The translations under genes and the position numbers were made by a program. From Herbidospora yilanensis (GTDB lineage: Bacteria > Actinomycetota > Actinomycetes > Streptosporangiales > Streptosporangiaceae), in the NCBI RefSeq assembly GCF_001570565.1, contig NZ_BBXE01000016.1:186001-250000 (forward strand): 64,000 nucleotides of DNA, given 5' to 3'. The notes below the pieces were generated by a model. The model ran no database searches. It was not told the origin of the DNA and saw only the letters and a program-made list of their open reading frames with translations. Below, one piece after another: positions 3,348-42,467 of the stretch. Within the stretch, counting starts at the first letter, position 1. Each line of letters opens with the position of its first letter.

Positions 3348-4147
3348 CAGGTGGTCACGACCCGCCGGGCCACCGTCGCGCTCGACGGCGTCCTGGTCCG
3401 GAGCGTGGCGAAGGCGGCCAGGCTGACGACCACGTAGGCCAGCGCGGCGGCGCTCCACCAGCCGGGAGCGGTGCCGACCAGCAGCACCATGGGCAGACTC
3501 CACTGCACGCTCGGGGTGGTGAGCTCGCGGGCGTCCTCCACCCGCATGACGACGTCGGCGGTCAGCGACTCCTCGTCCTCCGCCACGACCGGGTGACGGA
3601 GCAGGTGGCGCAGTTGCAGGGCGGAGATGGCGTACACGCCCACCAGGCCGATCAGCATGACGACGGTCAGTTCCCGTACGGTCGGGTCGGGAACGGCCAG
3701 GGCGCTTCCGGCCAGCAGGATCGAACCGGCGAAGACGGCGGCGGCGAAAACGGCGTACGGCAGGCCGAGCACGGTCCGCCAGCCGGGCTGTATCAGGTGG
3801 GCGGCCCTGCGGGACAACGTCGCGCCGGCCCGCCGGTCGACGCGGCGCACCCACCCGTCGAGCAGCGACTGCGCCACCAGCAGCCCGGCCACCACCACGG
3901 CCAGGGCCGGCAGCGCCGGCGGGCGGAGGGAGTCGGGGCCGAACCGGTTGACGGTCGCGGCGAGGGCGCTCGCGAGGATGAGCAGGGCCAGGACGACCGA
4001 ACCGCCGAGGCGCGCACGCTGCCGGGCGGCCAGCCGGTCGGCGAGCAGCAGGGTCGGCCGGACGTCGGCCAGATCGTGGCGCGCCAGCCACTCTCCCGCC
4101 TGCCGCAGATCGCCCGCACGCGCGTCGGGAAGGGGTTCACGGGTCAT
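3347..4147 (-). CDS. Multipass membrane protein of the GntR operon
   Basis: 266 aa with roughly six hydrophobic segments (for example SVVLALLILASALAATV, LPALAVVVAGLLVAQSLL, AVFAAAVFAGSILLAGSAL, TVVMLIGLVGVYAISAL, LPMVLLVGTAPGWW). The N-terminus is cytosolic and charged. I do not recognise a functional motif. Start ATG 4147 has a good ribosome site (AAAGGAG, 7 nt away). The gene is first in a two-gene operon with a YtrA-type GntR regulator, an arrangement often seen with membrane proteins or exporters induced by envelope stress or antibiotics. That role is inference only. Confidence 0.8.
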   Translation of the reverse strand: MTREPLPDARAGDLRQAGEWLARHDLADVRPTLLLADRLAARQRARLGGSVVLALLILASALAATVNRFGPDSLRPPALPALAVVVAGLLVAQSLLDGWVRRVDRRAGATLSRRAAHLIQPGWRTVLGLPYAVFAAAVFAGSILLAGSALAVPDPTVRELTVVMLIGLVGVYAISALQLRHLLRHPVVAEDEESLTADVVMRVEDARELTTPSVQWSLPMVLLVGTAPGWWSAAALAYVVVSLAAFATLRTRTPSSATVARRVVTT

Positions 4148-26241: not shown

Positions 26242-26257
26242 GTTCACATGTATGAAC
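26242..26257. promoter_or_regulatory. IclR-type operator, site 2
   Basis: GTTCACATGTATGAAC, within a longer perfect inverted repeat GGAGTTCA-N6-TGAACTCC (26239-26260). It ends 14 bp before the -35 of the rhamnosidase operon promoter. Confidence 0.7.
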
Positions 26258-26271
26258 TCCGGTTCTCATCC

Positions 26272-26301
26272 TTGACAGCCCGAGCAGATGTGGCGCACGA
26301 T
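26272..26301 (+). promoter_or_regulatory. Promoter of the rhamnosidase/transporter operon
   Basis: Consensus -35 TTGACA at 26272-26277, 18-bp spacer, -10-like CACGAT at 26296-26301. The predicted transcript starts near 26308, giving a leader of about 50 nt to ATG 26359 with GGAAGG as ribosome site. Confidence 0.6.
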
Positions 26302-26358
26302 TCCGGACATGTGAACGGTGCATTACCGAAGGGTCCGAAACCTGGAAGGCAGGTCGTG

Positions 26359-28863
26359 ATGGCAGAGCAGCAGGCAGCCCCGGTCGTGAGCGCGCTACGC
26401 GCCGCCGGGCGCGCCGCACCCCTCGGGCTGCCCGGCACCCCGCCACGTCTCTCCTGGTCCGCCAGTGCCGACGGGCCTTTCGAGGTCACCACCTCCACCG
26501 GCTGGTCGGCCACCGTCACCCGCCCCTGGATCGAGTACGCCGGCCCGGCCCTCGCCTCCCGCCAGCGGGTGACCTGGCAGGTGGAGGGTGCGGAGGCCGC
26601 CTTCGAGGTCGGGCTGCTGAACGCGGCCGACTGGCGGGCGACCTGGATCACCGGGCACCCGGAGCGCTTCCCCCGCGAGAGCCACGACCCGGCCCCGATC
26701 CTGGAACACGACTTCACGGCGTCCGGAGGCGTCGCCCGCGTCTACGCCACCGCGCTCGGGCTCTACCGCCTCTGGCTGAACGGCGTCGAGCTCACCGCCG
26801 CCGACCTCTACCGGCCGGGCTGGACCGACTACCGCACGCGCGTCCACCACCAGACCTACGCGGCGCGGCTGCTGCCCGGCCGCAACACGATCAGGGCGGT
26901 CCTGGCCAAGGGCTGGTACGCCGGCCGCCTCGGCCTGCTCCGCGAGCCCGGCTTCTACGGCGGCCTCCCCGCCTTCCTGGCACAGGTGGAAGAGGACGGC
27001 GAGGTCGTGGCGGCGACCGACAGCGGATGGCGTACCGCCAAAGGACCGATTCTCAGCACCGACCTGCTGCGCGGCGAGATCCAGGACCTGCGGCGGGAAC
27101 CCGAGGAGTGGGCCGGCGCGCTGCCCTTCGAGGGCCCGGCCCCCGAGGTCGTCCCGCAGCCGCACGACTCGATCACCGGCTACGAGATCCACGAGGGCAG
27201 GCTGGTCCACGAGCACGCGCGCGGCCCGGCGGTGTTCGACTTCGGGCAGAACCTCGTGGGCTGGACCCGGCTGACCACCCCGACAGTGCCGTCGGTCGAG
27301 GTGATCGTGCGCCACGGCGAGATCCTCACGCCGGAGAACCTGGTCTACCGCGACAACCTGCGCGGCGCCTTCCAGGAAGACCGCTACACCGTGCCCGGCG
27401 AGGGCCCCCACGTGCTCGAACCCGCCTTCACCATGCACGGCTTCCGCTACGCCGAGGTCTGGGGGCTGCCCGGCGACACGCCCTACGGCATGTACAAGGT
27501 GCGCCCCGAGACCCGCATCGAGGCGGTCTCGGTCACCGGCCTCCCCCTGCGGGCGGGCTGGTTCGAGTCGTCGAACGCCGCCCTGACCAGGCTCGCGAGC
27601 AACGTCGAGTGGACCGTCAGGGACAACTTCCTGGAGGCCGCCACCGACTGCCCGCAGCGCGACGAGCGCCACGGCTGGCTCGGCGACGCCGGCGTCATCG
27701 CCCCCACGGCCGCCTACCACTTCGACATCTCGGCGTTCCTGGCCAAGTTCACCCAGGACGCCGCCGACGCCCAGGGCCCCGACGGCGAGATCCCCAACTA
27801 CGTGCCCGCGGTCCCGCCCTCGGGCCTGACCCCGGGCGCTCCCGGCTGGTCGGACGGCTTCATCCGGCTCGTCCACACCGCCGTGCAGCGCTACGGCGAC
27901 CTCGGCACCGCCCGGCGCCTGTTCCCGAACATGGTCAGGTTCCTCGACCACGTCGACCGGGCCAACCCCGACGGTCTGCGGGTCAACCAGACCGGCGCCG
28001 ACTTCGGCGACTGGCTCTCGCTCCCCGAGCGGGAGGGCGCCCCCTTCCATTTCGGATACGAGTACACCGGCGCCCACTCGACCACCCCGCGCCCGGTCGT
28101 CGGCACCGCCCACAGCTACCGGTCCTTCGTCCAGCTCGCCGAGATCGCGGCCTGGCTGGGGGAGACCGGGGAGGCGGCCCGGCTGGCCGAGCGGGCCGAG
28201 GAGATCAGGCAGGCGTACCTGAAGGCCTTCCTGCCGCTGCGGGAGCCCACCCAGACGGCCTTCGCTCAGGCGATCGGTTACGGCCTGGTCCAGGGCGCGG
28301 ACGCCGCCGAGATGGCCGCCGAGCTGCGGCACGCCATCGAACGCGCCGGGCGCGTCACCACCGGCATCCACGGCGTCGAGCACGTGCTGCCCGTCCTGTC
28401 GGCCCACGGCCACGCCGACTTCGCCACGAGGCTCCTGCTCAAGGACGAGATGCCGAGCTGGCTCTACATGGTCGCCAAGGAGGCCACCACGATCTGGGAG
28501 AAGTGGGACGGCATCCGCCCTGACGGCACCCTGTCCACCGCCGAGATGAACTCCTTCAACCACTGCGCCCTCGGCGCGGTCGGCCGCCATCTCTTCGAGG
28601 GCGTCGCCGGCCTCGACGCCACCACCACCACGTGGACCGGCGAGATCGTCGTCCGCGCCCGGTACACCCGCGATCTCGACTGGGTCAGGGCCGGTTACGA
28701 CAGCCCCGTCGGCCCCATCCGCAGTTCCTGGCGGTGGGCCGGCCAGGCGGTCGAGCACGAGATCGAGGTGCCGGGCGCGGCGTTCGCCACCGTCCATCTG
28801 CCGGAGGCCGAGCCGGTCCGGCTCGGGCCCGGAACCCACACCGTGCACGTGGAGCTGCCATGA
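26359..28863 (+). CDS. Alpha-L-rhamnosidase, GH78
   Basis: 834 aa from ATG 26359. Domain order matches GH78: an N-terminal beta-sandwich domain (about 100-290, with ALGLYRLWLNGVELTAADLY and LLPGRNTIRAVLAKGWY), the concanavalin-like rhamnosidase domain (about 300-400, FDFGQNLVGWTRL), then the (alpha/alpha)6 catalytic barrel with the signature TDCPQRDERHGWLGDAG (about 432-448) holding the catalytic acid, and KEATTIWEKWDG near 715. A C-terminal beta domain ends the protein. No signal peptide, so it acts on imported rhamnosides. ATGA overlap with the permease gene ties it to the ABC importer. Confidence 0.93.
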   Translation: MAEQQAAPVVSALRAAGRAAPLGLPGTPPRLSWSASADGPFEVTTSTGWSATVTRPWIEYAGPALASRQRVTWQVEGAEAAFEVGLLNAADWRATWITGHPERFPRESHDPAPILEHDFTASGGVARVYATALGLYRLWLNGVELTAADLYRPGWTDYRTRVHHQTYAARLLPGRNTIRAVLAKGWYAGRLGLLREPGFYGGLPAFLAQVEEDGEVVAATDSGWRTAKGPILSTDLLRGEIQDLRREPEEWAGALPFEGPAPEVVPQPHDSITGYEIHEGRLVHEHARGPAVFDFGQNLVGWTRLTTPTVPSVEVIVRHGEILTPENLVYRDNLRGAFQEDRYTVPGEGPHVLEPAFTMHGFRYAEVWGLPGDTPYGMYKVRPETRIEAVSVTGLPLRAGWFESSNAALTRLASNVEWTVRDNFLEAATDCPQRDERHGWLGDAGVIAPTAAYHFDISAFLAKFTQDAADAQGPDGEIPNYVPAVPPSGLTPGAPGWSDGFIRLVHTAVQRYGDLGTARRLFPNMVRFLDHVDRANPDGLRVNQTGADFGDWLSLPEREGAPFHFGYEYTGAHSTTPRPVVGTAHSYRSFVQLAEIAAWLGETGEAARLAERAEEIRQAYLKAFLPLREPTQTAFAQAIGYGLVQGADAAEMAAELRHAIERAGRVTTGIHGVEHVLPVLSAHGHADFATRLLLKDEMPSWLYMVAKEATTIWEKWDGIRPDGTLSTAEMNSFNHCALGAVGRHLFEGVAGLDATTTTWTGEIVVRARYTRDLDWVRAGYDSPVGPIRSSWRWAGQAVEHEIEVPGAAFATVHLPEAEPVRLGPGTHTVHVELP

Positions 28864-29843
28864 CGGCCAGGTTCGTGGTCCTGCGGCTGCTCCGGCTGGT
28901 AGCCGTGCTGCTCGTCGTGTCGGCGTTGTGCTTCCTCAGCCTCAACCTGCTGCCCGGCGACCCGGCCCGCGCGATCCTCGGCGAGTCGGGCACCCCCGAG
29001 TCGGTGGCCGCCCTCCAGCAGGAGCTCGGTCTCGACGTCCCGATGGGCGAGCGCTACATCACCTGGCTGGGCGGCATCCTCCAGGGCGACTTCGGCCGGT
29101 CGTACGCCAACCGGCTCCCGGTCGCCGACATCATCCTCCAGCGGGCGCCGGTCACGATCGAGCTGATCCTGCTGAGCCAGCTCATCGCGCTGGCCGTGGC
29201 GATCCCGCTGGCCACCGTGGCCGCGGTCAAGCGCGGCACGGCGGTCGACCGGGGGATCAGCTCGCTGGTGTTCCTCGCGGTCTCGGTGCCGTCGTTCGTG
29301 CTGGCGTTCGTGCTGATCTGGGTGTTCGCGATCAAGCTCGGGCTCTACCCGGCCAACGGCTTCATCCCCATCAGCGCGGGGCTCGGCCAGAACCTCGGCT
29401 CGCTGCTGCTGCCGTCGCTGGCGCTGGCCGCCGGGCCGGCCGCCCTCTACCAGCGGGTGCTCCGCGCCGACCTGGCCGAGACCTACGGACAGGAGTTCAT
29501 GAACGTGGCCCGCGCCAAGGGCGTCTCGCCGCTGCGGATGGCCGTCAGGCACGCCTTCCGGCCCAGCCTGCTCGGCCTGACCACCTCGCTCGGCGTGGTC
29601 GTCGGCGTGCTGATCGGGTCGAGCGTGATCATCGAGAACCTGTTCAGCCTGCCGGGCCTCGGCTCGATCCTGGCCACCTCGGTCAGCGGGCGCGACTACG
29701 TGGTGGTCCAGGGGGTCGTGCTGGTCGCGGCGACGGCGTTCGTGGTGATCAACGCGGTCGTCGACCTGGTCTACGGGCTCATCGACCCGCGCCTGCGCAA
29801 AGCCCGCGTGACCCGCCGGGCCGGGGCGGTGCCGGTCGCATGA
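28860..29843 (+). CDS. ABC importer permease, DppB/OppB type
   Basis: 327 aa, first permease of the importer. The family N-terminus is classic (RLLRLVAVLLVVSALCFLSLNLLPGDPARAI), with about six membrane helices and the EAA-like cytoplasmic loop MNVARAKGVSPLRMAVRHAFRP. It forms the translocation channel with the next gene's product. The overlap with the rhamnosidase gene (ATGA) and the next gene (ATGA) indicates strict coupling. Although named for peptides, members of this family also import oligosaccharides, which the context favours here. Confidence 0.92.
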   Translation: MTARFVVLRLLRLVAVLLVVSALCFLSLNLLPGDPARAILGESGTPESVAALQQELGLDVPMGERYITWLGGILQGDFGRSYANRLPVADIILQRAPVTIELILLSQLIALAVAIPLATVAAVKRGTAVDRGISSLVFLAVSVPSFVLAFVLIWVFAIKLGLYPANGFIPISAGLGQNLGSLLLPSLALAAGPAALYQRVLRADLAETYGQEFMNVARAKGVSPLRMAVRHAFRPSLLGLTTSLGVVVGVLIGSSVIIENLFSLPGLGSILATSVSGRDYVVVQGVVLVAATAFVVINAVVDLVYGLIDPRLRKARVTRRAGAVPVA

Positions 29844-30652
29844 GGCGTCTCAAGGTCGTCGACTCCCTCTCGCTCACCTGGCTGGGCGTGCTGTTCCTCG
29901 CCGCGGTGATCCTGCCGCTGGTCATCGCCTTCGACACCGAGACGATGTCGTCGGCCCAGCGGCTGGCCGGACCGTCGGCCGACTACTGGCTCGGCGGCGA
30001 CAACTACGGCCGGGACCTGCTGGCCCGCGCCCTGGCCGGGGCCCGGGTGTCGCTCGGCATCGGGTTCGGGTCGGTCGCGATCGCGGCGCTGATCGGGGTG
30101 CCGCTCGGCATGCTGGCCGGCTATCTGCGCGGCGCCGTCGACGCGGTGATCTCGTTCGTCGTGGACGTCGTGCTCGCCTTCCCCGGGCTGGTGCTGGCCC
30201 TGGCGCTGGCCTCGTTCCTGGGGGCCTCGATCCAGAACGTCATGATCGCGATCATCGTGCCGATGACCCCGGTGTTCGCCCGGCTGGCCAAGGCGCAGAC
30301 GATGGCGGTCTCCGGCCGGGAGTACGTCGAGGCCAGCCAGGTGATCGGCACCCCCACCCGGTCGATCGTGTGGCGGGACGTGCTGCCCAACATCCTGCCG
30401 CCGATCCTCGCCTACGCCATGGTCAACGTCGGCACCGCGATCCTCATCGAGGGCGGGCTGAGCTTCCTGGGCATGGGCGTGCCGCCCGACCAGCCGTCGT
30501 GGGGCAGCATGATCAACCAGGGCCGGGTCTTCATCAGCGAGGACCCCCGCCTGGTCGCGGTGCCGTCGGTGTTCATGCTGCTCACCATCCTCGGGCTCAA
30601 CCTGCTGGGTGACCGGTTCCTCTCCGGCAACGACAAGGCGGGCGTGCGATGA
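29840..30652 (+). CDS. ABC importer permease, DppC/OppC type
   Basis: 270 aa, second permease. N-terminal helix (SLTWLGVLFLAAVILPLVIAF), WLGGDNYGRDLLARALAGARVSL (typical DppC start of the channel domain), EAA loop YVEASQVIGTPTRSIVWRDVLPN, and the family end LLTILGLNLLGDRF. About six helices. ATG 29840 overlaps the previous stop, and its own stop overlaps the first ATPase gene (ATGA). Confidence 0.92.
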   Translation: MRRLKVVDSLSLTWLGVLFLAAVILPLVIAFDTETMSSAQRLAGPSADYWLGGDNYGRDLLARALAGARVSLGIGFGSVAIAALIGVPLGMLAGYLRGAVDAVISFVVDVVLAFPGLVLALALASFLGASIQNVMIAIIVPMTPVFARLAKAQTMAVSGREYVEASQVIGTPTRSIVWRDVLPNILPPILAYAMVNVGTAILIEGGLSFLGMGVPPDQPSWGSMINQGRVFISEDPRLVAVPSVFMLLTILGLNLLGDRFLSGNDKAGVR

Positions 30653-31622
30653 CCCTGCTCAGCATCCGTGACCTGGTCGTGGAGTTCCCCACTCCGGCCG
30701 GGGTGGTCAGGGCGGTCGACCACGTGAGCCTCGAACTCGGGTTCGGCGAACGGCTCGGCGTCGTCGGGGAGTCGGGGTCGGGGAAGAGCGTGCTGGCCCG
30801 TACCGCGATGGGACTCACCCGGAAGGGACCCGCGCGGATCAGCGGCGAGGTCGTCATCGACGGCCGGTCGATCCTCGGCCTGAGCGAACGCGGCAGGCGG
30901 GCGCTCTGGGGCCGCGAGGTGGCCATGGTCTTCCAGGACCCGCTGAGCGCCCTCCACCCGATCACCCCGATCGGCGCGCAGATCGCCGAGGCGGTCCGGC
31001 GCGACCCGTCGGTGAAGAAGGAGCAGGCCGCGAAGCGGGCCGTCGAACTCCTGGAGATCGTCGGCATCCCGCAGGCCGCCCGCCGCGCGAAGTCACGGGC
31101 GCACGAACTGTCCGGCGGCATGCGCCAGCGGGTCGCCATCGCGATGGCGGTGGCCGGCCGGCCGAAGTTGTTGTTCGCCGACGAGCCGACGACCGCGCTC
31201 GACGTCACCGTGCAGGCCCGCATCCTCGACCTGTTCGACGAGTTGTGCCGCGAGTTCGGCATCGGCATCGTGATGGTCAGCCACGACCTCGGCGTCGTCG
31301 GCCGCCACACCGACCACGTCGCGGTCATGTACGCCGGCCGCATCGCCGAACGCGGCCCGGTGAAGGCCGTGTTCGCCCGGCCGAGCATGCGCTACACCAG
31401 CGCGCTCATGGCCGCCATCCCCAGCCACCGGGCCGAGCGGCAGACGCTGCCCAAGCCGATCCCCGGCTCCCCGCCCAACCTGCTGGCTCCCCCGCCGGGC
31501 TGCCGCTTCGCCCCGCGCTGCGCCTTCGCCACCGACAGGTGCGGCACCGAGCAGCCCACGCTGACCGAACTCTCCGGCGGCCACGAATACGCCTGCTGGC
31601 ACCCCGGACAGGAGGCCGTCCG

Positions 31623-31626
<4 letters not shown>
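30649..31626 (+). CDS. ABC importer ATPase, DppD/OppD type
   Basis: 325 aa. Walker A GESGSGKSVLA, Q-loop in MVFQDPLSALHP, signature ELSGGMRQRVAIAMA, Walker B LLFADEPTTALDVT, H-loop VSHDLGVV. The C-terminal oligopeptide/HPY region (about 235-320) has the usual four-cysteine iron-sulfur-type motif (CRFAPRCAFATDRC and a later Cys in YACWHPG). It pairs with the next ATPase. ATGA overlaps on both sides. Confidence 0.93.
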
Positions 31627-32564
<938 letters not shown>

Positions 32565-32580: not shown

Positions 32581-34185
32581 ATGCGCGTCCCCATCCGGCG
32601 GAGGCTGCTCGCCCTCCCCATAGCCGCCGTCACCGCCGTGGCCCTGGCATCCTGCACGGTCTCGGGCGGCGCCGATCCCGCCGCGGTCGCGTCGTCCCAG
32701 GCGGCGGCCGGAAACGACCAGCCCAGGCAGGGCGGCACCCTCAACGTCGCCATCGGCGCCGACCTGGCCACCCTCGACCCGTCCAAGGGCTCGGCCAACA
32801 CGATGGCCCTGGTCGGCTCGGCCGTGTACGACACCCTCATGGTCGTCCCCAAGATCGGCGACCTGCCCCAGCCCAACCTGGCCCAGTCGCTCACCGAGAG
32901 CGCCGACAAGATGAGCTGGGAGATGAAGCTCCCCACGGGCGTCAAGTTCAGCGACGGCACCCCGTTCGACGCCGAGGCGGTCAAGTTCAACCTCGACCGC
33001 AACCGCGCCGAGGGCTCCACAGCCGCCGCGTTGTTGTCGTCGATCGACTCCGTCGAGGTCGCCGACCCGGCCACGGTCACGATCAAGATGAAGCACCCGT
33101 TCAGCAACCTGCCCTACGCCTTCTCCTACGACGGCTCGGGCACCGCGGGCTACGTCGCCTCCCCGACGGCCCTGAAGCAGTACGGCGACGACTACACCGC
33201 CCACGCGGCCGGGGTCGGCCCCTACAAGCTCCAGTCGTGGGCGCCCGGCCAGCCGGTCGAGCTGGTCCGCAACCCCGACTACTGGAACAAGGACAAGCAG
33301 GTCTACCTCGACAAGGTCGTGGTCAAGACGATCGCCGACCCGCAGAGCGCCTACCAGGCGCTGCTCGCCGGCGACATCGACCTGATGGCGACCGTCTCGC
33401 CGACCCTGATGAAGACCGCGAAGGAGAACCCGCAGGTCAACTTCGTGCAGGGCGTCGGCGCCGACCAGGACAGCATCATCCTGAACGTCACCCGGCCGCC
33501 GTTCGACGACGTGCGGGTGCGCGAGGCGCTGTCGAAGGCGCTGAACCGGCAGGAGATCGTCGACCTGACGACCGAGGGCCTCGGCAAGCCGGCCGTGAAC
33601 CTGTTCCCCGAGGGCAACCCGTTCCACAGCCCGGCCGCCGACCCCGCCTACGACGTCGCGGGGGCCAAGCAACTGCTCGCCGCCTACGAGGCCGACACCG
33701 GCAAGAAGGCCACGTTCAACTACACGTGCAGCAACGTGCGCCCGGCCAGCGACGTCATCGTCAACCAGCTCAAGGCGGCCGGGTTCGACGTGAAGTTCGA
33801 CGCGCTGGAGCCGTCGGCCTGGCTCGACCAGTTCTTCGGCAAGAAGTACTCGGCGATCTGCTGGACCATGGCCGGCTTCCTCACCCCCGACCTGCTGCCC
33901 TACCGCTTCCTCCACTCCACGGGCGACCTGAACACCGGCGGCTTCAAGAGCGCCGCGTTCGACGAGAAGGCCGACGCCGCCCGCACGGCCACGCCCGAGG
34001 AGCAGAAGACCCTGTGGGCCGAGGCCGACACGGTGCTCACCAAGGAGCTCCCGTGGGTGTGGACGACCAGCGCGCCCATCGGCTTCGTCTGGTCCAAGAA
34101 GGTCCACAGCGTCGACTTCGACGAACCCGCCCGGCTGCGCTACAGCGTGCCGAGCTTCGTGAACGCCTGGCTCCAGGAGGGCTGA
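32581..34185 (+). CDS. Solute-binding lipoprotein, family 5 (DppA/OppA)
   Basis: 534 aa. Lipoprotein signal with lipobox ALASC (Cys near residue 24). SBP_bac_5 landmarks: GGTLNVAIGADLATLDPSKG, TWEMKL-type MSWEMKLPTGVKFSDGTPF, GVGPYKLQSWAPGQPVELVRNPDYW, and DVRVREALSKALNRQEIV. It delivers substrate to the importer encoded just upstream. The substrate is inferred to be a rhamnose-containing glycoside because of the coupled GH78; a peptide-like substrate cannot be excluded. Position at the end of the transporter block allows separate translation to higher level. Confidence 0.92.
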   Translation: MRVPIRRRLLALPIAAVTAVALASCTVSGGADPAAVASSQAAAGNDQPRQGGTLNVAIGADLATLDPSKGSANTMALVGSAVYDTLMVVPKIGDLPQPNLAQSLTESADKMSWEMKLPTGVKFSDGTPFDAEAVKFNLDRNRAEGSTAAALLSSIDSVEVADPATVTIKMKHPFSNLPYAFSYDGSGTAGYVASPTALKQYGDDYTAHAAGVGPYKLQSWAPGQPVELVRNPDYWNKDKQVYLDKVVVKTIADPQSAYQALLAGDIDLMATVSPTLMKTAKENPQVNFVQGVGADQDSIILNVTRPPFDDVRVREALSKALNRQEIVDLTTEGLGKPAVNLFPEGNPFHSPAADPAYDVAGAKQLLAAYEADTGKKATFNYTCSNVRPASDVIVNQLKAAGFDVKFDALEPSAWLDQFFGKKYSAICWTMAGFLTPDLLPYRFLHSTGDLNTGGFKSAAFDEKADAARTATPEEQKTLWAEADTVLTKELPWVWTTSAPIGFVWSKKVHSVDFDEPARLRYSVPSFVNAWLQEG

Positions 34186-34190
34186 TCGAC

Positions 34191-34982
34191 ATGGACTGGA
34201 CCGATCGCGTCGGCGTCGTGACCGGCGCCGCCTCGGGCATCGGGGCGGCCACCGCCAGACGGTTCGCCGCCCGGGGCATGCGCGTCGTCGGACTCGACCT
34301 CGACGCGGCCGGCCTGGCCGCGACCCACGAGGCCATCGGGGCGGCGTTCACCCCCGTGGCGCTCGACGTCTCCGACGGCGCCGCCGTGCGCGCCGCCGTC
34401 GGGGGCCTGGCCCGGATCGACGCCGTGGTCAACTGCGCGGTGAACTTCCTGGCCAAGGGCATCGACGTCACCCAGGACGACTGGGACCGGGTGCTGCGGG
34501 TCAACGTGCAGGGCATCAGCAACGTCGTGCAGGCCGCCCATCCGCTGCTGGCCGCCTCGGGGCACGGCGCGGTGGTGAACGTCGCCAGCGTCTCGGCGCA
34601 CGCCGCGCAGCCGTCGCGGTGGACGTACAACACCACCAAAGGCGCCATCGTCACGCTGACCAAGTGCATGGCGCTCGACCTGTCCGCCGACCGGATCAGG
34701 GTCAACGTGGTCAGCCCCGGCTGGATCTGGACCCCCGAGGTCGCCAAGGCGGCCGGAGGAGACCGGGAGAAGTGGGAACCCGTCTGGGGCCGCTTCCACA
34801 TGTTGCGCCGCCTGGGCGAGGCCGACGAGGTGGCCGCGGCCATCACGTTCCTCTGCTCGGCGGACGCCAGTTTCATCACCGGCGCGGAACTGCCCGTCGA
34901 CGGCGGCTACCTGGCCATGGGGCCGGAGGGCCTCGGCGACGACTCCAGCTTCGCTGGAACCGATGCGAGGGAAGAGCGTTGA
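34191..34982 (+). CDS. SDR-family sugar or acid dehydrogenase
   Basis: 263 aa. Classical short-chain dehydrogenase: TGAASGIG (cofactor loop), Asp of GLDLDAAG (NAD preference), NCAVN in place of NNAG, catalytic Ser in NVASVSAHA, Tyr and Lys in YNTTKGAI, and PGWIWTPEVAK. L-rhamnose 1-dehydrogenases and 2-keto-3-deoxy-L-rhamnonate 4-dehydrogenases belong to this family, and either would fit beside a rhamnosidase and an FAH hydrolase. The specific reaction is inference. ATG 34191 lies 5 bp after the previous stop. Confidence 0.88.
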   Translation: MDWTDRVGVVTGAASGIGAATARRFAARGMRVVGLDLDAAGLAATHEAIGAAFTPVALDVSDGAAVRAAVGGLARIDAVVNCAVNFLAKGIDVTQDDWDRVLRVNVQGISNVVQAAHPLLAASGHGAVVNVASVSAHAAQPSRWTYNTTKGAIVTLTKCMALDLSADRIRVNVVSPGWIWTPEVAKAAGGDREKWEPVWGRFHMLRRLGEADEVAAAITFLCSADASFITGAELPVDGGYLAMGPEGLGDDSSFAGTDAREER

Positions 34983-35902
34983 GCACGCACATCGTCATTA
35001 CCGACACGAATCTGGGCGACGGCTCGATAGAGCTGGAGATCCTGCGGCCGGCGTTCGAGGTCAGCCACCACCACGTGCTCACCGAGGACGAGGTGCTGGA
35101 GGTCGGCGCCGAGGCCGACGGGCTGATGGTCCAGTGGGCCCCGCTGACCGAGCGTGTCCTGTCGGGCCTGCCGCGGCTGAAAGCGGTCGTCCGGTACGGG
35201 ATCGGCATGGACAACATCGACCTCGACGCGGCCCGGCGGCTGGGCATCACGGTCCGCAACGTCGACGACTACTGCCTCGCCGAGGTCGCCGACCACGCCG
35301 TCGCCGCGATCTACGCCCACAACCGGCGGCTGACCGCCGGATCCCGCTCCTACGTGGCCAAGGGCTGGACCACGGCCGGGATCGCGCTGCCCCTGCTCCC
35401 GGAGGAGGACCCGGTCGGGATCGCCGGCTTCGGCCGGATCGGGCGCGAGGTCGCCCGGCGGGCCCTGGCGCTGGGCTTCCCCGTGCACGTGTGGGACCCG
35501 TTCGTCGGCGAGTTGCCCGAAGGCGTCGTCGGCCACGCCACCCCCGTGGAACTGGCCGCCGCGGTCAACCACCTGACCCTGCACATGCCGTCGAACGAGC
35601 AGACCAGGGGGGTGATCGACAAGGCCGTGCTGGACGCGCTCGGACCGGACGGTCATCTGGTCAACACCGCCCGCGGCGCGCTCGTGGACGAGGAGTCGCT
35701 GCTCGCGGCGCTCGACCAGGAGAAGCTGGCGTTCGCCACCCTCGACGTGCTGGTTGAGGAGCCGCCCACCGGGGTGTCGGCCGAACTGGCGAACCATCCC
35801 CGGGTGCTTGTCACCCCCCACACCGCCTACCTGTCGACCCGCTCGCTCCCGTCGCTCCAGCGCCGGGCCGCCGAGATCATGCGCGACCTGATGGCGGGCT
35901 GA
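34979..35902 (+). CDS. D-isomer-specific 2-hydroxyacid dehydrogenase
   Basis: 307 aa from a TTG at 34979 that overlaps the SDR stop (TTGA), with GGGAAGAG 4-5 nt upstream; no better start exists in frame. The NAD-binding motif GFGRIGREVARRAL is intact, as are catalytic Arg (NTARGALVDEE), the Glu region (LDVLVEEPP) and His (VTPHTAYLS). It follows the C-terminal-binding-protein-like branch. It would interconvert a 2-keto and 2-hydroxy acid within the pathway. Confidence 0.9.
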   Translation: MSTHIVITDTNLGDGSIELEILRPAFEVSHHHVLTEDEVLEVGAEADGLMVQWAPLTERVLSGLPRLKAVVRYGIGMDNIDLDAARRLGITVRNVDDYCLAEVADHAVAAIYAHNRRLTAGSRSYVAKGWTTAGIALPLLPEEDPVGIAGFGRIGREVARRALALGFPVHVWDPFVGELPEGVVGHATPVELAAAVNHLTLHMPSNEQTRGVIDKAVLDALGPDGHLVNTARGALVDEESLLAALDQEKLAFATLDVLVEEPPTGVSAELANHPRVLVTPHTAYLSTRSLPSLQRRAAEIMRDLMAG

Positions 35903-35903
35903 G

Positions 35904-36836
35904 ATGCGCGCCCTCGTCTACACCCGGCCCGGCGTGGTCGAATCGCTCGACGTCGCCGAACCCGCCCCCGCCGAGGGTGAGGTTCTCGTCAAGGTCCACG
36001 CCGTCGGCATCTGCGGCAGCGAACTCCACGGCATCCGCGACGCCGGGTTCCGCCGTCCCCCGCTCATCATGGGCCACGAGTTCGCCGGCACCACCCCCGA
36101 CGGCCGCCGCGTCGTGGCCAACCCCCTCATCAGCTGCGGGCGCTGCGACCAGTGCCTGATGGGCCGCGACCACCTGTGCCGCGAACGCGCGCTCCTCGGC
36201 ATCCACCGGCCGGGCGCCTTCGCCGAATGGGTGAGCGTCCCGGAGAAGGCCCTCCACGACCTGCCGCCGGACATGAGCTTCGAGACCGCCGCCGTCGTCG
36301 AACCGCTCGCGAACGGCGTGCACGCCGTCAACCTGGCCCGCCCCTACCCGGGCGCCCGGGTGGCCGTGCTCGGCGCCGGAACCATCGGCCTGGTCTGCGC
36401 GCTGGTCGCCCGGCAGGTCACCGACCAGGTGACCGTCTGCGACCTGTCGCCCGACCGGCTCGCCGTGGCCGGGCGGCTCGGCGCGTCGGCGGTCACGACC
36501 ACCCTGGAGGGCGAGTTCGACATCGTGATCGACGCCGTCGGGGCCGCCGCCACCCACCAGATCTCGGTCCAGCACCTGCGGCCCGGCGGGACCGCCGTCT
36601 GGATCGGCCTGCTGAGCAGCGAGGCCGCGATCGACGGCCAGAAGATCGTCCGCGAGGAGAAGCACATCGTCGGCTCCTACTGCTACACCGCCGCCGAGTT
36701 CGCCCAGGCCGTGAAGCTGGCGCGGGACGTGGACCTCGGCTGGACGACCAGCTTCGACCTGGCCGACGGGGCCGCCATCTTCGGCGAGCTGGTCGACGGC
36801 CGCTCCGACGTCGTGAAGGCGCTGCTACGCCCATAA
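35904..36836 (+). CDS. Zinc-dependent medium-chain dehydrogenase
   Basis: 310 aa, slightly short for the family. Catalytic zinc ligands: Cys and nearby residues in VGICGSELHG, and His-Glu in MGHEFAG. The structural zinc site has four Cys (CGRCDQCLMGRDHLC). Rossmann motif VLGAGTIGLV. Similar to threonine, sorbitol or galactitol-phosphate dehydrogenases, so a polyol or sugar-acid oxidation is plausible. ATG is 1 bp after the previous stop. Confidence 0.9.
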   Translation: MRALVYTRPGVVESLDVAEPAPAEGEVLVKVHAVGICGSELHGIRDAGFRRPPLIMGHEFAGTTPDGRRVVANPLISCGRCDQCLMGRDHLCRERALLGIHRPGAFAEWVSVPEKALHDLPPDMSFETAAVVEPLANGVHAVNLARPYPGARVAVLGAGTIGLVCALVARQVTDQVTVCDLSPDRLAVAGRLGASAVTTTLEGEFDIVIDAVGAAATHQISVQHLRPGGTAVWIGLLSSEAAIDGQKIVREEKHIVGSYCYTAAEFAQAVKLARDVDLGWTTSFDLADGAAIFGELVDGRSDVVKALLRP

Positions 36837-36844
36837 GGAGAGAC

Positions 36845-37615
36845 ATGTATTCGGTGAGACTGCTGCACCTCGGCGACGGGGACGTCCCCGGGCCGGAGGT
36901 CTACTGGATGTCCGACTGGGACCGGTGGTACACCCTGGCGTTCCAGGCGTTCCTGATCCAGGGCGAGGGCGTGACGGCCCTGGTCGGCACCGGCCCGGCC
37001 GAGGACCTGGGCCCGATGAACGAGGGCTGGGCGGCCTTCCTGGGCGAACGCGCGGCGATGCGCCGGGAGCCGGGAATGTGGCTGCCCGACCAGCTGGCCG
37101 CGCTGGGCATCGCCCCGGCCGACGTGACCCATGTGCTGCTGACGCCGTTGCAGCTCTACACGACGCCGAACGTGCCGCTCTTCCCGAACGCCGAGATCTG
37201 CCTGACCGAACGCGGCTGGACCCACTTCCACCGCACGAAGAAGCACCCCCACGACAACCGCTGGACCAGCCTCCCGCCGGAGGTCCTGTCGTACCTGACC
37301 CACGACGCGTGGGACCGGGTCAGGCTGCTCGCCGACGAGGACGAGGTCGTGCCCGGCATCCGCACCTGGTGGACGGGCTCGCACCACCGCGCCTCGATGG
37401 CCGTGGAGATCGACACGTCGGCGGGCGTGGTGACCGTCACCGACGCCTACTTCACCCGCCGCAACCTGGAGACCGACCAGCCGATCGGCATCTGCGAGAA
37501 CATCTACGAGGCCCTGGCCGCCCACGAGCGCATCCGCCGCGTCTCCGACATCCCCCTGACCCTGTACGACGCCGACCAGCTCACGCTCTATCCGGACGGC
37601 GTCGTGGCGTCGTGA
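36845..37615 (+). CDS. Metallo-beta-lactamase-fold protein lacking the HxHxDH metal motif
   Basis: 256 aa. The overall layout is that of lactonase-type MBL proteins (AFLIQGEGVTALVGTG; LPDQLAALGIAPADVTHVLL; FPNAEICLTERGW; EVVPGIRTWWTGSHHRASMA; VVTVTDAYF). The segment that should read THxHxDH is TPLQLYT, so all four first-half metal ligands are replaced, while the later His and the Asp of VTDAYF remain. It is either a non-metal or structural relative or an enzyme with a different site. Ribosome site GGAGAG before ATG 36845. Its operon position would suit a sugar lactonase. Confidence 0.8.
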   Translation: MYSVRLLHLGDGDVPGPEVYWMSDWDRWYTLAFQAFLIQGEGVTALVGTGPAEDLGPMNEGWAAFLGERAAMRREPGMWLPDQLAALGIAPADVTHVLLTPLQLYTTPNVPLFPNAEICLTERGWTHFHRTKKHPHDNRWTSLPPEVLSYLTHDAWDRVRLLADEDEVVPGIRTWWTGSHHRASMAVEIDTSAGVVTVTDAYFTRRNLETDQPIGICENIYEALAAHERIRRVSDIPLTLYDADQLTLYPDGVVAS

Positions 37616-38376
37616 GCCGGGTGGCGCTGGGCGGCGCCCGCTGGTCGCTGACCGGCTCCCCCGACGAGGACCTCGCCCTCGCCACCCTCCACGCGGCGCT
37701 CGACGCCGGGGTGACCCTGGTCGACACCGCCTACGCCTACACGCCGCCCGGCACATCGGGCGGCCACAACGAGTCACCGATCGCCCGGGGGATCGCCGGG
37801 CGATCGGTGACCGTCTCCACCAAGGGCGGCCACTGGCGCGGCCCCGGCGGCTTCCTGATCGACGGAAGGCCCTCGACGCTGCGGCGGCACTTCGAGGAGA
37901 GCCTGTCGAGGCTGGGCGCGATCGGCCTCTACTTCCTCCACTGGCCCGACCCCGCGGTCCCCCTGCGGGAGTCCGTGGGCGAGCTGATCCGCCTGCGCGA
38001 GGAGGGCCTGGTCGAGCGCGTCGGCGTCTGCAACGTGACCCTGGACCGGCTTCGGCGGCTGGAGGGCATCGACGCGGTCCAGAACCGCTTCTCGCCCGAC
38101 ATCGCGCGACACTGCGCCGGGCACGGCCTGGAGTATCTCGTCCATTCGCCCTTCGGTGGCCCGGCGGGCGCGCGGCGCATCGCCGCGGACCCCGTGATCG
38201 GTGAGATCGCCCGTGACCACGGCGTCACGCCGCACGCGGTCGCGCTGGCCTGGTTGACGGCACAGGGGCCGGTGGTCCCGATCGTGGGCGCGGGCCGTCC
38301 GGGCAGCGTGGCGGCCTTCGACGGCGCGAGGCTGACCCTGACCGGGACCGAACTCCGGCGCATCCCCGGCCTGTGA
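37612..38376 (+). CDS. Short aldo/keto reductase
   Basis: 254 aa from GTG 37612, overlapping the previous stop (GTGA). Shorter than the usual 300-340 aa, but the core AKR motifs are present: VDTAYAYT (Asp, Tyr), STKGGHW (Lys), FLHWPDP (His), RVGVCNVT and VPIVGAGRPGSV. Possibly reduces lactaldehyde or another aldehyde produced from rhamnose breakdown, or oxidises a sugar. Last gene of the plus-strand operon; its stop is immediately adjacent to the stop of the convergent FAH gene. Confidence 0.88.
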   Translation: MSRVALGGARWSLTGSPDEDLALATLHAALDAGVTLVDTAYAYTPPGTSGGHNESPIARGIAGRSVTVSTKGGHWRGPGGFLIDGRPSTLRRHFEESLSRLGAIGLYFLHWPDPAVPLRESVGELIRLREEGLVERVGVCNVTLDRLRRLEGIDAVQNRFSPDIARHCAGHGLEYLVHSPFGGPAGARRIAADPVIGEIARDHGVTPHAVALAWLTAQGPVVPIVGAGRPGSVAAFDGARLTLTGTELRRIPGL

Positions 38377-39222
38377 TCAGTAGGCCACGATCACCTGTTC
38401 CTGTCGGCCGAGGCCGTCGATCTCCATCGTCACGACGTCGCCGACCTTCAGATAGGGGAAGCGGCCCGACAGCGCCACGCCCTCGGGGGTGCCGGTGCTG
38501 ATCACGTCGCCCGGCATCAGCAGCATGTAGTGGCTCAGGTGGTGGATGATCTCCGCGACGGAGAACACCATGTCGGCCGTGCTGGAGTCCTGCCGGATCT
38601 CGCCGTTCACCCACGACCGCAGCCGGAGCCCGGTCGGGTCGATCTCGGAAGCCGGCCGCAGGACCGGGCCCAGCGGGTTGAAGGTCTCGGCGCACTTGCC
38701 CTTCGACCACTGCCCGCCCGACTCCTCCAGTTGGAAGGCCCGCTCGCTCAGGTCGTTGGACAACGCGTAGCCCGCGACGTAGTCGAGCGCCTCGGAGGGG
38801 TCCTTGAGGTAGCGCGGAGTGCGCTTCATGACGACGGCCAGCTCGACCTCCCAGTCGGTCTTCTCCGAGCCGGGAGGCAGGATCACGTCGTCGTCCGGGC
38901 CGACCACGCAGCCCGGGTGCTTGAGGAACACGACCGGGTAGGGCGGCGGCGCGGCGCCCGACTCGGCCGCGTGGGCGGCGTAGTTCATGCCGATGCAGAC
39001 CACGGCGGCGGGCCGGGCGACGGGCGGGCCGACGCGTTGTCCCCGCGCGGCGATCGGGGGGAGCTCCCCGTTCGCCAGGGCCGCCGCGACACGATCGATC
39101 CCGTCGGCGGCGAAGAAGTCGCCGTCGAGGTCGGGGGTGAGCGGCGTCAGGTCGTATTCACGGCCTTCGTGGCGGACGGCGGGGCGCTCGGACCCCGCGG
39201 GGCCGTGGCGGAACAGTTCCAT
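38377..39222 (-). CDS. Fumarylacetoacetate hydrolase (FAH)-family protein
   Basis: 281 aa from ATG 39222 (GAGGAAA ribosome site). FAH C-terminal catalytic domain: VCIGMNYAAHAAESG, FLKHPGCVVGPDDDVILPPG, metal ligands in DWEVELAVVM and SNDLSERAFQ, and GTPEGVALS near the end. The family includes 2,4-diketo-3-deoxy-L-rhamnonate hydrolase, which yields pyruvate and lactate; in this setting that is the most attractive role, though fumarylpyruvate-type hydrolases look similar. It sits 11 bp after the IclR gene and is presumably co-transcribed. Confidence 0.9.
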   Translation of the reverse strand: MELFRHGPAGSERPAVRHEGREYDLTPLTPDLDGDFFAADGIDRVAAALANGELPPIAARGQRVGPPVARPAAVVCIGMNYAAHAAESGAAPPPYPVVFLKHPGCVVGPDDDVILPPGSEKTDWEVELAVVMKRTPRYLKDPSEALDYVAGYALSNDLSERAFQLEESGGQWSKGKCAETFNPLGPVLRPASEIDPTGLRLRSWVNGEIRQDSSTADMVFSVAEIIHHLSHYMLLMPGDVISTGTPEGVALSGRFPYLKVGDVVTMEIDGLGRQEQVIVAY

Positions 39223-39233
39223 TGCTGATTTCC

Positions 39234-39998
39234 TCACACGTCCTGGCGGCCCATCCGCAGCGATAGCTGGTGGACGGTCGACCGGACGTTCTCGATGGTT
39301 CTGGTGATGACCTCGGGGGTCCTGCGCACTTCGGGGATGGAGACGCTGATGGCGGCCCGGCCGCCGCCCCGGTGGCCGCTGAAGGGCGCGGCGATGCAGA
39401 ACACCCCGGGGGTGTATTCGGAGTTGTCGGTGGCGTAGCCGTTCTCGCGGACCTCGCGGATGGCCGTCAGCAGCGCCGGCAACGACGTGATCGTGTTGGG
39501 GGTGTAGGTCGCGAAGGCGACCCCGGTGAAGCGCTCGGTGATCTCGTCGTCGGTGAGCTGGCTGAGCAGCGCCTTGCCGATGCCGGTGGCGTGGGCGGGC
39601 AGGCGCACGCCCACCCGGGAGGCCAGCCGGAGCTGGTGGTCGGGGTCGACCTTGGCGATGTAGATGTTGTCGGTGCCGTCGAGCGTGGCGAGCTGGACGG
39701 TCTCGTTGAGCGCATCGCGCAGCGCCTCCATGTAGGGGAGGGCGACCTTCTCCAGGTCGGCGACGGCGACGTAACTCTGCCCGGCCTGCCAGAGGCGGAT
39801 GCCGACCCGGAACCTGCGGCTCTCGGTGTCCTGCTCCAGGAACCCCCGGGTGACCATCGTGACCAGCAGGGTGTACGTGCTGCTCTTGGGGATCTCCAGG
39901 CGGCGCTGGATCTCCGTCAGGGTCAGCCCGTCGCGGTGGTCGGTCAGCAGATCGAGGATGGCGAGCGTGCGATCAGCCGACTTCACGAGTGAGTTCAT
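39234..39998 (-). CDS. IclR-family transcriptional regulator
   Basis: 254 aa. N-terminal winged helix at residues 6-68 (SADRTLAILDLLTDHRDGLT, LTEIQRRLEIPKSSTYTLLV). The C-terminal effector domain (about 80-250) contains LDGTDNIYIAKVDPDHQLRL, LPAHATGIGKALLSQL and GVFCIAAPFSGHRGGGRAAI, with the family Cys retained. It probably binds the GTTC-N8-GAAC sites and senses a sugar-acid or aglycone intermediate. It lies in the minus-strand operon between the AMP-ligase and FAH genes. Confidence 0.93.
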   Translation of the reverse strand: MNSLVKSADRTLAILDLLTDHRDGLTLTEIQRRLEIPKSSTYTLLVTMVTRGFLEQDTESRRFRVGIRLWQAGQSYVAVADLEKVALPYMEALRDALNETVQLATLDGTDNIYIAKVDPDHQLRLASRVGVRLPAHATGIGKALLSQLTDDEITERFTGVAFATYTPNTITSLPALLTAIREVRENGYATDNSEYTPGVFCIAAPFSGHRGGGRAAISVSIPEVRRTPEVITRTIENVRSTVHQLSLRMGRQDV

Positions 39999-40046: not shown

Positions 40047-41585
40047 TTACCGCCGCGCACGCAGCTCGTTTTTCCGTATTTTGCCTGATGAGGTCTTGGG
40101 TAGCGGGCCGAACTCGTACCGGTCGGGGGCTTTGAAGGCGGCCAGCCGGGCCCTGACGTGAGCACGTAGTTCCTCCGGCGAGACGGTGTGTCCTTCGCGC
40201 AGGGTCACGTAGGCGATCGGGCGCTCACCCCAGTGTTCGTCCGGCATCGCCACGACGGCGGCCTCCAGCACGGCCGGGTGGGCCGCGAGCGCCGACTCGA
40301 CCTCGATCGACGAGATGTTCTCTCCGCCGGAGACGATGACGTCCTTGGCCCGGTCGCGCAGTTCCAGATAGCCGTCGGGGTGGAGCACGCCCAGGTCGCC
40401 GGTGCGGAACCAGCCGTCGGGGACCGCCAGGCGGGTCGCCTCGTCGTCGCGGTAGTAGCCGAGCATGACGGTGTTCCCGCGCAGGGCCACCTCGCCCAGG
40501 GTCGCGCCGTCGCGGGGGACGTCCGTGCCGTCCTTCAGCACGCGGATCGTGCACGACACCAGGTTGGAGACGCCCTGACGGGCCCGCAGGACGGCCTGCT
40601 CGGCCACGGGCAGCGTGTTCCATTCGGGCCGCCAGTCGCAGATGGCGGCGGGGCCGAAGGTCTCGGTCAGGCCGTACAGATGAGTGATGTCGAGGCCCGC
40701 GCGTTCGCAGCCGGCCAGCAGCGACGGCGACGGCGGCGCGCCTCCGACGGCGACCGCCACCCGCCGCCCGCGCGCCGGCGGGGCCACTTCGAGCAGCGAG
40801 ATCAGCACGGTCGGCGCGCCGCAGAACATGGTCACGCCCTCGGCGTCGATCAGGCGCCACACCTGGGCGGGGTCCACTCTTCGCAGACAGACGTGGACCC
40901 CGCCGGCCGCCGTGACGGCCCAGGGGAAGGCCCATCCGTTGCAGTGGAACATCGGCAGAGTCCACAGATAGACGGTCTCCGGCGTGAGCCGGAAGTGGGC
41001 GACCATGGCGAGCGACTGGAGGTAGGCGCCGCGATGGTGGTACATGACACCCTTCGGGTGCCCGGTGGTCCCGCTGGTGTAGTTGAGCGCCATCAGCCCG
41101 CGCTCGTCGGCCTCGACCCGGTGGGGTTCGGCCTCGGCCCGCAGCCGTTCGTGTTCGGCCGGACCCACGACGCGCAGGCCGCCGCCGATCTCCTCGGCCA
41201 GTTCGGCGAACTCGGGGTCGTGCAGGAGGACGGTCGCCCCCGAGTGCTCCAGGATGTGGCGGAGTTCGGCGGCCGCGAGCCGGATGTTCAGCGTGACCAG
41301 CACCGCGCCCGCGTACAACACGCCGAAGTGGGATTCGAGCAGCAGCGGCGAGTTGGCCCCCAGCACGGCCACGCGGTCGCCCGGCTCGACCCCGAGCCCG
41401 CGCAGCAAGCCGGCCTGCCGCAGGCAGCGGTCGTGCAGTTCGCGGTAGGTCAGCCGCAGGTCTCCGTCGACCACGGCGAGCCGCTCGGCGTGGACCTCGG
41501 CGGCCCGGTCGAGCAGGGCGGTCGGGGTGAGCGGCTCGTAGCTGACGTGAGACGGCACCGCTCGCCACCCTTCGAAACCGGACAT
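40047..41585 (-). CDS. AMP-dependent acyl-CoA synthetase/ligase
   Basis: 512 aa from ATG 41585. ANL-superfamily motifs: YTSGTTGHPKGVMYH (phosphate loop), LYGLTETFGP, GWFRTGDLGVLHPDGY, and the C-terminal catalytic Lys in PKTSSGKIRK. It activates a carboxylic acid (medium-chain, aryl or hydroxy acid) as CoA thioester. In this operon it could process the aglycone or acid released from imported rhamnosides. No ribosome site precedes ATG 41585; the predicted transcription start lies only a few nucleotides upstream, so the mRNA may be leaderless. Confidence 0.9.
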   Translation of the reverse strand: MSGFEGWRAVPSHVSYEPLTPTALLDRAAEVHAERLAVVDGDLRLTYRELHDRCLRQAGLLRGLGVEPGDRVAVLGANSPLLLESHFGVLYAGAVLVTLNIRLAAAELRHILEHSGATVLLHDPEFAELAEEIGGGLRVVGPAEHERLRAEAEPHRVEADERGLMALNYTSGTTGHPKGVMYHHRGAYLQSLAMVAHFRLTPETVYLWTLPMFHCNGWAFPWAVTAAGGVHVCLRRVDPAQVWRLIDAEGVTMFCGAPTVLISLLEVAPPARGRRVAVAVGGAPPSPSLLAGCERAGLDITHLYGLTETFGPAAICDWRPEWNTLPVAEQAVLRARQGVSNLVSCTIRVLKDGTDVPRDGATLGEVALRGNTVMLGYYRDDEATRLAVPDGWFRTGDLGVLHPDGYLELRDRAKDVIVSGGENISSIEVESALAAHPAVLEAAVVAMPDEHWGERPIAYVTLREGHTVSPEELRAHVRARLAAFKAPDRYEFGPLPKTSSGKIRKNELRARR

Positions 41586-41594
41586 CGGGTGACT

Positions 41595-41643
41595 ATTCTG
41601 GAATCGAGTTCCGTATCTTGTCAATCGGTTCACATATGAGAAC
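41595..41643 (-). promoter_or_regulatory. Promoter with IclR-type operator (site 3) for the ligase operon
   Basis: The operator GTTCACATATGAGAAC (41628-41643) fits GTTC-N8-GAAC. Three bp downstream on the minus strand is a consensus -35 TTGACA (41624-41619), then after 18 bp a -10-like CAGAAT (41600-41595). It mirrors the operator/-35 arrangement at the rhamnosidase promoter. Confidence 0.7.
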
Positions 41644-42416
41644 TAGAACGACGTCGGCTGGCCCGGTTCCAGGAGGCGCAGGCGGTCGTCGAGCTCGTAC
41701 TTCTCGAAGGCGTCCAGGAGGTCGGCCGGGCCCTCGGTGAAGTGTTGCCAGCCCTCCATGTGGAGGGGGATGACCACCTCGGCGCCGGTGATCAGGGTCG
41801 CCTCGACGACCTCCTCGCCCGTGAAGGTCAGGAAGCCGTCGACCAGGGGGGTGCGGGCCGCCCCGGCGAAGAACAGGCCCGCGTCCATCGGCCCGAGCCG
41901 CTCCGTGATCTCCCTGGTCGCTTCGAGCGAGGCGTTGTCGCCGCTCACATAGATGGCCGGCAGATCGAAGGCGGTCAGCACGAAACCCGTCACCGGCCCC
42001 AAGAGGTCCTCCGTGCCCGGTGGCCCGTGCTCGGCCGGCACCCACGTGATCCGCAGTGAACCGCCGTCGGGCCGTTCGAAGGTCACGTGGTCCCAGGCGG
42101 GCAGGCCGGTGACGTCCTCCCCGAGGCGCTCGGCGGCCTCGGGTGTGGTCAGCACCTCCGGCACCTCGTCGAGCAGCGCTCGGCCCGAATGGTCCAGGTT
42201 GTCGGCGTGCTGATCGTGCGAGAGCAGGATGATGTCGAGATCGCCCAGTTCGTGGGGCTGGACGGCCGGGCCGGTGGTCTTGATGAGCGTACGGGTGCCG
42301 CTGACGATCGGTCCCGGCCCGTCGAAGGTCGGGTCGGTGAGCAACTTCAGGCCGCCGATCTCCAGCAACGCCGTCGGCCCGCCCACCAACCGCACGGTGC
42401 AGGTTTTCCGCTCCAT
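41643..42416 (-). CDS. UlaG-like metallo-beta-lactamase-fold hydrolase
   Basis: 257 aa from ATG 42416 (the frame also has a GTG one codon earlier). MBL motifs of the UlaG/L-ascorbate-6-phosphate lactonase group: LLTDPTFDGPGP, metal motif LSHDQHADNLDH (residues about 66-77), EHG of VPAEHGPPG, SGDNAS and a final PLHMEG with His. Metal ligands appear complete. Probably a lactonase or phosphodiesterase-type hydrolase of unknown substrate. It lies upstream of the AMP-ligase gene on the same strand; its last base touches operator site 3, so the downstream operon has its own promoter. Confidence 0.87.
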   Translation of the reverse strand: MERKTCTVRLVGGPTALLEIGGLKLLTDPTFDGPGPIVSGTRTLIKTTGPAVQPHELGDLDIILLSHDQHADNLDHSGRALLDEVPEVLTTPEAAERLGEDVTGLPAWDHVTFERPDGGSLRITWVPAEHGPPGTEDLLGPVTGFVLTAFDLPAIYVSGDNASLEATREITERLGPMDAGLFFAGAARTPLVDGFLTFTGEEVVEATLITGAEVVIPLHMEGWQHFTEGPADLLDAFEKYELDDRLRLLEPGQPTSF

Positions 42417-42467
42417 CACCCCATCCTGCGCGCACCCCGTTCAAGGGAATCCATCCGGGGGTGCAAC

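Follow-up and report, generated by a model that had tools for sequence, protein, structure and literature searches.

What does a protein do that is built like a metallo-beta-lactamase (MBL) lactonase and reads TPLQLYT where the metal-binding THxHxDH motif is expected? An earlier note, made from the DNA alone, raised this question for the gene at 36845-37615 (+) of the window, by which we mean the whole 64,000-nucleotide stretch of Herbidospora yilanensis DNA analysed here. Its description of an intact gene with a good ribosome site in a tight operon is accurate: translation of the window gives a full frame of 256 amino acids, a Shine-Dalgarno AAGGAG (36835-36840, +) is spaced 4 nt from the ATG, 8 nt separate the gene from the stop of the preceding zinc-type alcohol dehydrogenase (ADH), and its end overlaps the next gene, which starts with GTG, by 4 nt (37612-37615). 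We use the label pMBL for this protein and for the members of its clade, in which the metal ligands are replaced.

The gene cluster

The genes of the cluster are listed below, named from Pfam matches unless stated otherwise.

26248-28863, + strand: GH78 alpha-L-rhamnosidase
28860-32564, + strand: two ABC permeases and two ATPases, Dpp/Opp-like (named by eye; order conserved in locus L063)
32581-34185, + strand: ABC solute-binding lipoprotein (named by eye)
34191-34982, + strand: SDR dehydrogenase (34194-34982 scanned)
34979-35902, start approximate, + strand: D-isomer-specific 2-hydroxyacid dehydrogenase (2HADH) family (34982-35902 scanned)
35904-36836, + strand: zinc-type MDR alcohol/sugar dehydrogenase
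36845-37615, + strand: pMBL, an MBL-fold (AiiA-type) protein with five of seven metal ligands replaced (translation, alignments, AlphaFold2)
37612-38376, + strand: aldo-keto reductase
38377-39237, - strand: FAA hydrolase (Pfam and NCBIfam)
39234-39998, - strand: IclR-family regulator
40047-41633, - strand: acyl-CoA synthetase (AMP-binding), also with the cluster in L025, L028, L033 and L063

Three dehydrogenases and the FAA hydrolase are thus present, and no dehydratase or aldolase was recognised in the window cluster; elsewhere in the genome, MR_MLE gave 12 matches, 11 of them over the cut-off. The top NCBIfam match of the FAA hydrolase is 2,4-didehydro-3-deoxy-L-rhamnonate hydrolase, at 250.8 bits below the cut-off of 500. 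Adjoining the acyl-CoA synthetase gene is that of a second MBL-fold protein, MBL2 (41643-42419, -; Lactamase_B_2, UlaG-like), with the motif SHDQHADN, which did not turn up alongside the cluster in L063, L066 or the other clade loci examined.

Predicted fold and family scores

An AlphaFold2 model of pMBL, computed on ten sequences, reached a pLDDT of 83.9 and a pTM of 0.88; residues 17-23 are poorly predicted. Its best PDB matches are AHL lactonases (8x78_H: VIA-align Z 25.3, rmsd 2.5, 238 residues); Z is 23-25 against GcL, AaL (6cgy), AiiB and AiiA, and Foldseek gives an E value of 9.4e-16 against GcL. The lactonase-like MBL fold that the earlier note proposed to check by structure prediction is therefore borne out as AiiA/GcL-type, at a Z of about 25. 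pMBL resembles these lactonases in whole-chain fold, in length and in the positions of H180 and D200; it differs from them in sequence, the top 20 structural alignments showing 13-19% identity, and in its family scores. Every NCBIfam lactonase model stays far under its cut-off (AhlS, the best, 27.2 of 475 bits; AidB 20.2 of 360; AiiA 20.1 of 375; AttM 17.6 of 390; YtnP 14.3 of 425; 4-pyridoxolactonase 18.4 of 325), and Pfam Lactamase_B, at 21.2 bits, falls below its gathering threshold of 22.7. Despite this sub-threshold score, MBL descent is supported by the predicted fold and by the relatives.

Replacement of the metal ligands

In AiiA-type lactonases, the ligands of the dinuclear centre follow the pattern HxHxDH~H~D~H in MBL motif notation. 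The predicted pMBL model has the alpha-beta-beta-alpha MBL fold of the lactonase subtype, and lacks this ligand set: five of the seven positions are replaced in all 13 members of its clade. The positions that matter here are as follows.

37142-37162, + strand: TPLQLYT, residues 100-106, replacing THxHxDH (translation, alignments)
37229-37231, + strand: His129, present throughout the clade (13 of 13) and in none of 17 comparison rows
37259-37261, + strand: Arg139, unchanged throughout the clade (13 of 13); 3 of 17 comparison rows also have Arg
37382-37390, + strand: His180-His181-Arg182; H180 holds one of the two kept ligand positions, and H181 and R182 are specific to the clade, occurring in none of 17 comparison rows
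37442-37444, + strand: Asp200, the bridging Asp position, retained (alignments)
37565-37567, + strand: Tyr241, in place of the last His ligand, GHDP/SHDP having become LYDA/LYDP (alignments)

Aligned to relatives, TPLQLYT does occupy the place of THxHxDH, as claimed, and represents real substitutions (H to P101, H to Q103, D to Y105 and H to T106). The claimed loss of the first-half ligands thus holds for all four, and the loss is larger than described, because the last ligand was missed: all 17 comparison rows have His there, and the window protein has Tyr241 and reads LYDA. Only H180 and D200 are left, both kept in 13 of 13 clade rows; the stretches GSHHR and VTDAYF, correctly described as kept, correspond to residues 178-182 and 198-203.

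The replacements belong to a wider set of clade-specific residues, invariant in the 13 members and found in none of the 17 comparison rows: W21, M22, Q34, P101, Q103, Y105, H129, T174, H181, R182, E218, Y221 and Y241. Passages of PMC11423328 present Tyr223 of GcL as a candidate acid catalyst and describe the GcL Asn152-Ala157 loop as important in substrate accommodation. Counted from the aligned Asp, on sequence only, the counterpart of Tyr223 is approximately F203 in the window protein, and Phe stands at that position in the full-motif sisters L041-L045 as well; the H129 segment aligns near the loop, as placed via the G156P change. In the first 10 sequences, a new metal site made of a His cluster at residues 127-137 was attractive. 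This cluster, H(F/Y)Hx(T/S)xxHPHD, is kept in 11 of the 13 members, and we dropped it as the main reading because L040 and L053 are without it, lacking H127, H134 and H136.

A clade with shared replacements

The first-motif replacement is common to 12 of 42 aligned rows and the remaining 30 all keep HxHxDH, which excludes chance or sequencing error. With L053 added, the clade has 13 members from several actinobacterial lineages, 34-88% identical to the window protein, and a branch with support 100/99 separates all 13 from the other rows in a 30-row tree. That tree leaves out 15 of the 30 full-motif rows and includes aiiB (L067) and a Qingshengfaniella lactonase (L068); it carries long-branch warnings for aiiB, L037, Qing, L007 and two large groups, and its midpoint root serves for drawing only. 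Before counting, we dropped the window's own copies (L001, L047, L081), rows from the L025 contig (L035, L066), L046 and L048, which we treated as duplicates of L033 and L028 on the strength of identical identities, and L010 and L023, which gave no tblastn match; weak class matches (L049-L051) and the L069 stretch were left out of the alignment. Close homologues therefore share the replacement, as the earlier note had suggested checking, and its own possible undoing, that homologues keep the full motif and the window carries a sequencing error, is excluded by them. A frameshift is ruled out likewise, since all 13 rows, from different genomes, carry these replacements.

The clade is sparsely distributed. 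A scan of genome_contigs gave 10 loci, of which one, L034, is a distant full-motif protein and nine are clade members (56-88% identity), hosted by Acrocarpospora, Streptomyces, Nocardioides (two), Pimelobacter, Jiangella, Phytoactinopolyspora, Sciscionella and an actinobacterial MAG. Among 341 Streptosporangiaceae genomes, close orthologues occur in three, namely that of the window, G060 and G339, and six have any match at an E value of 1e-15. Six further genomes belong to the window's genus and none of them has an orthologue, the matches in G004 and G005 being distant full-motif proteins. Seven of 396 genomes in a phylum sample match, the window's own included: G665 supplies a second metal-less protein and five keep the motif. 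The class sample of 394 genomes also yields seven, comprising the window's own, two taken as Jiangellaceae repeats, G036, whose protein (L003) has the full motif, and three weak matches. Within the family of G665, 7 of 35 genomes match (two metal-less, five full-motif), and widening the search to 40 genomes of its class gave no further match. A plasmid collection contains 92 matching records, all under 60% identity; among the 20 listed, the best reaches 34.5%, and the two aligned, H1 and H20, are full-motif proteins. Our literature searches recognised no paper on this clade, and it is within these searches that we call it undescribed in print.

Selection and constraint

The pMBL gene is under purifying selection and shows no recent decay. 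Pairwise dN/dS (Nei-Gojobori) between the window protein and L025, L036 and L026 is 0.160, 0.143 and 0.131, and three other pairs give 0.175, 0.151 and 0.112; the neighbouring ADH gives 0.195. Across the 13 members, 49 of 256 positions are invariant, and these include six of the seven old ligand positions (hypergeometric p 2e-4, with positions treated as independent). For the replaced positions only, four of five are invariant (p 0.005, again treating positions as independent) and the fifth is shared by 12 of 13 members, with a mean conservation of 0.98 against 0.73 for the average position. A dead site would be expected to drift; here the ligand positions have become fixed to new residues, so the protein probably works, in a new way. 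The values of 0.11-0.18 in six pairs and the conserved operon uphold the earlier view of a gene that is probably functional rather than decaying. To a sequencing error or decaying gene as the explanation of the locus we give next to no credence, in view of the 13 of 13 rows from different genomes, these dN/dS values, the intact frame and the ribosome site.

Clusters in relatives

The block SDR-2HADH-ADH-pMBL is contiguous in the window and in L025, L026, L027, L028, L029, L030, L033 and L063; among the nine clade loci of the genome_contigs scan, seven have it, and it is not contiguous in L031 and L032. In L063, from another genus, all 14 cluster genes occur in the same order, GH78 being cut by the end of the stretch. 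GH78 is visible only in the window, L027 and L063, and many locus stretches end early. The cluster or its dehydrogenase-pMBL core is patchy over Streptosporangiaceae, Streptomyces, Nocardioidaceae and Jiangellaceae, and this spread over distant genera suggests horizontal transfer of the catabolic operon. In Streptomyces blattellae, a Mutator-family transposase gene (L026, 7449-8732) lies downstream of the orthologue, near the contig end.

Full-motif sisters stand at the lactonase position of sugar-acid clusters. L064 has the order SDR-MBL-MR_MLE dehydratase-DHDPS aldolase and L062 has Peripla_BP_4 binding protein-SDR-MBL-MR_MLE, matching the step order aldose dehydrogenase, lactonase, dehydratase and aldolase given in passages of PMC6336799 and PMC9795676. 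The five sisters L041-L045 share 28-31% identity with pMBL, its GPE and PIG/PVG stretches and an adjoining SDR gene; unlike pMBL, they keep SHLHHDH and SHDP. These sisters are known here from sequence and gene context.

Two divergent metal-less members are found in related surroundings: L061 reads Gfo/Idh-Gfo/Idh-MR_MLE-DHDPS-pMBL with sugar ABC genes upstream, and L032 reads IclR-DHDPS-pMBL-Gfo/Idh. Other loci speak against a lactonase slot. The L031 locus has GH43, SDR and ADH genes. L060, one of the two deepest members, adjoins DegT aminotransferase and Gfo/Idh genes and offers no plain lactonase context; its DegT/DnrJ aminotransferase (L060, 670-1899) hints at an amino- or keto-sugar substrate there. 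Near the pMBL gene of L032, from an actinobacterial MAG, we also observed a DnaB helicase with an intein (1274-3916; Intein_splicing, LAGLIDADG).

As for the pathway in the window, passages of PMC6336799 describe a route in which L-2-keto-3-deoxyrhamnonate is oxidised and then hydrolysed to pyruvate and lactate. The window FAA hydrolase might point to this oxidation and hydrolysis route. An L-rhamnose route is only a guess, because the window cluster is without a dehydratase or aldolase and the FAA hydrolase score is well below its cut-off.

Proposed explanation and alternatives

Our preferred reading, which we put at somewhat under an even chance, is that pMBL descends from a sugar lactonase and is an enzyme that has been rewired to do without the dinuclear centre, acting perhaps on a lactone derived from L-rhamnose. 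Its established elements are the predicted fold, the clade and its descent, the ligand losses, selection and the genomic context. The ancestor would have been a dinuclear AiiA/GcL-type metallo-lactonase, presumably serving the lactone-opening step of non-phosphorylative sugar-acid catabolism. Along the stem branch of the clade, the dinuclear site would have given way to the fixed residues P101, Q103, Y105 and Y241 and to the clade-specific H129, H181, R182, E218 and Y221, with the retained H180 and D200 joining the new set; judging from the alignment, these residues may line one pocket. The present substrate would most likely be a sugar lactone or a closely related sugar-acid intermediate, in the window probably originating from L-rhamnose released by the GH78 enzyme. 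Acid/base residues drawn from H180, H181, R182, D200, Y105, Y241 and H129, together with a carbonyl polarised by Arg or Tyr, would replace the two metal ions in a presumably metal-free hydrolysis. Several points count against this explanation: the surroundings of L060, the missing dehydratase and aldolase in the window cluster, and the probable Phe at the position of GcL Tyr223. In addition, sugar lactones also hydrolyse slowly without enzyme, and the pentonolactonases of one review are SMP30 metalloenzymes (PMC9795676). A Haloferax pentonolactonase, considered as a possible MBL-fold precedent, is SMP30 by homology in that review and was dropped. We hold more loosely still the broader proposal of a metal-independent clade of MBL-fold lactonases that has a Tyr/His/Arg/Asp site, has kept its role on sugar lactones and is carried by a patchy operon across Actinomycetota.

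The retention of H180 and D200 in all members, and the invariance of the clade-specific H129, H181 and E218, could also mean that one metal is still bound. The site would then be rewired and shifted, with H180 and D200 joined by new ligands (H129, H181, Q103 or E218), and the protein would still be a metallo-lactonase. The proximity of the H129 segment to the GcL substrate loop fits such a site, whereas the loss of the H(F/Y)Hx(T/S)xxHPHD cluster in two members speaks against it, and we regard it as unlikely, though worth serious consideration. Quite unlikely, in our judgement, is that the same pocket supports another reaction, isomerising, dehydrating or epimerising a sugar lactone or keto-sugar intermediate. 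What recommends this idea is that the cluster encodes an FAA hydrolase, an enzyme whose substrate in the published route is a 3-deoxy diketo acid (passages of PMC6336799), and has no recognisable dehydratase; the conserved residues of pMBL also differ from those of the 17 comparison rows. However, an MR_MLE dehydratase stands beside the metal-less protein of L061 and over-cut-off MR_MLE matches occur elsewhere in the window genome, so the dehydratase need not be pMBL.

A non-catalytic role, in ligand binding, regulation or scaffolding, would make pMBL a pseudoenzyme comparable to CPSF100 and INTS9, which assist active MBL partners; CPSF100 sets the precedent of an MBL fold without key motif-2 residues that works with an active partner (passages of PMC4819959). 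We consider this distinctly unlikely. No conserved active MBL partner was seen in the examined cluster loci and pMBL has no close paralogue in its genome, where the next profile match has an E value of 0.011 and the next single-sequence match is the full-motif L022 at 7e-4; a distant partner such as L022 is possible. The carrier or regulatory partner imagined in the earlier note thus finds no support there. The high conservation of the replaced positions favours a pocket in use, though it also fits ligand binding.

If the rewired-enzyme reading is true, the clade would show how a metalloenzyme becomes metal-free, or rewired, and comparing full-motif sisters with metal-less members, which sit in similar sugar clusters, would be a clean natural experiment. 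In a superfamily known for its metal site, a clade that has preserved the lactonase fold while giving up five of seven ligands and fixing the replacements warns against calling such proteins metallo-hydrolases from fold alone.

Comparison with other systems

SMP30 aldonolactonases, described in passages of PMC9795676, catalyse the step proposed for pMBL, from aldonolactone to aldonate in non-phosphorylative pathways, and differ from it as six-bladed beta-propeller metalloenzymes of unrelated fold. CPSF100 and INTS9 share the MBL fold and are themselves non-catalytic, and the yeast CPSF100 crystal structure has no bound metal (passages of PMC4819959). They differ in being eukaryotic RNA-processing proteins; both have active partners, and CPSF100 contains a beta-CASP domain. 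Beta-CASP is not among the Pfam matches of the window protein, in which the lactonase fold spans residues 1-256.
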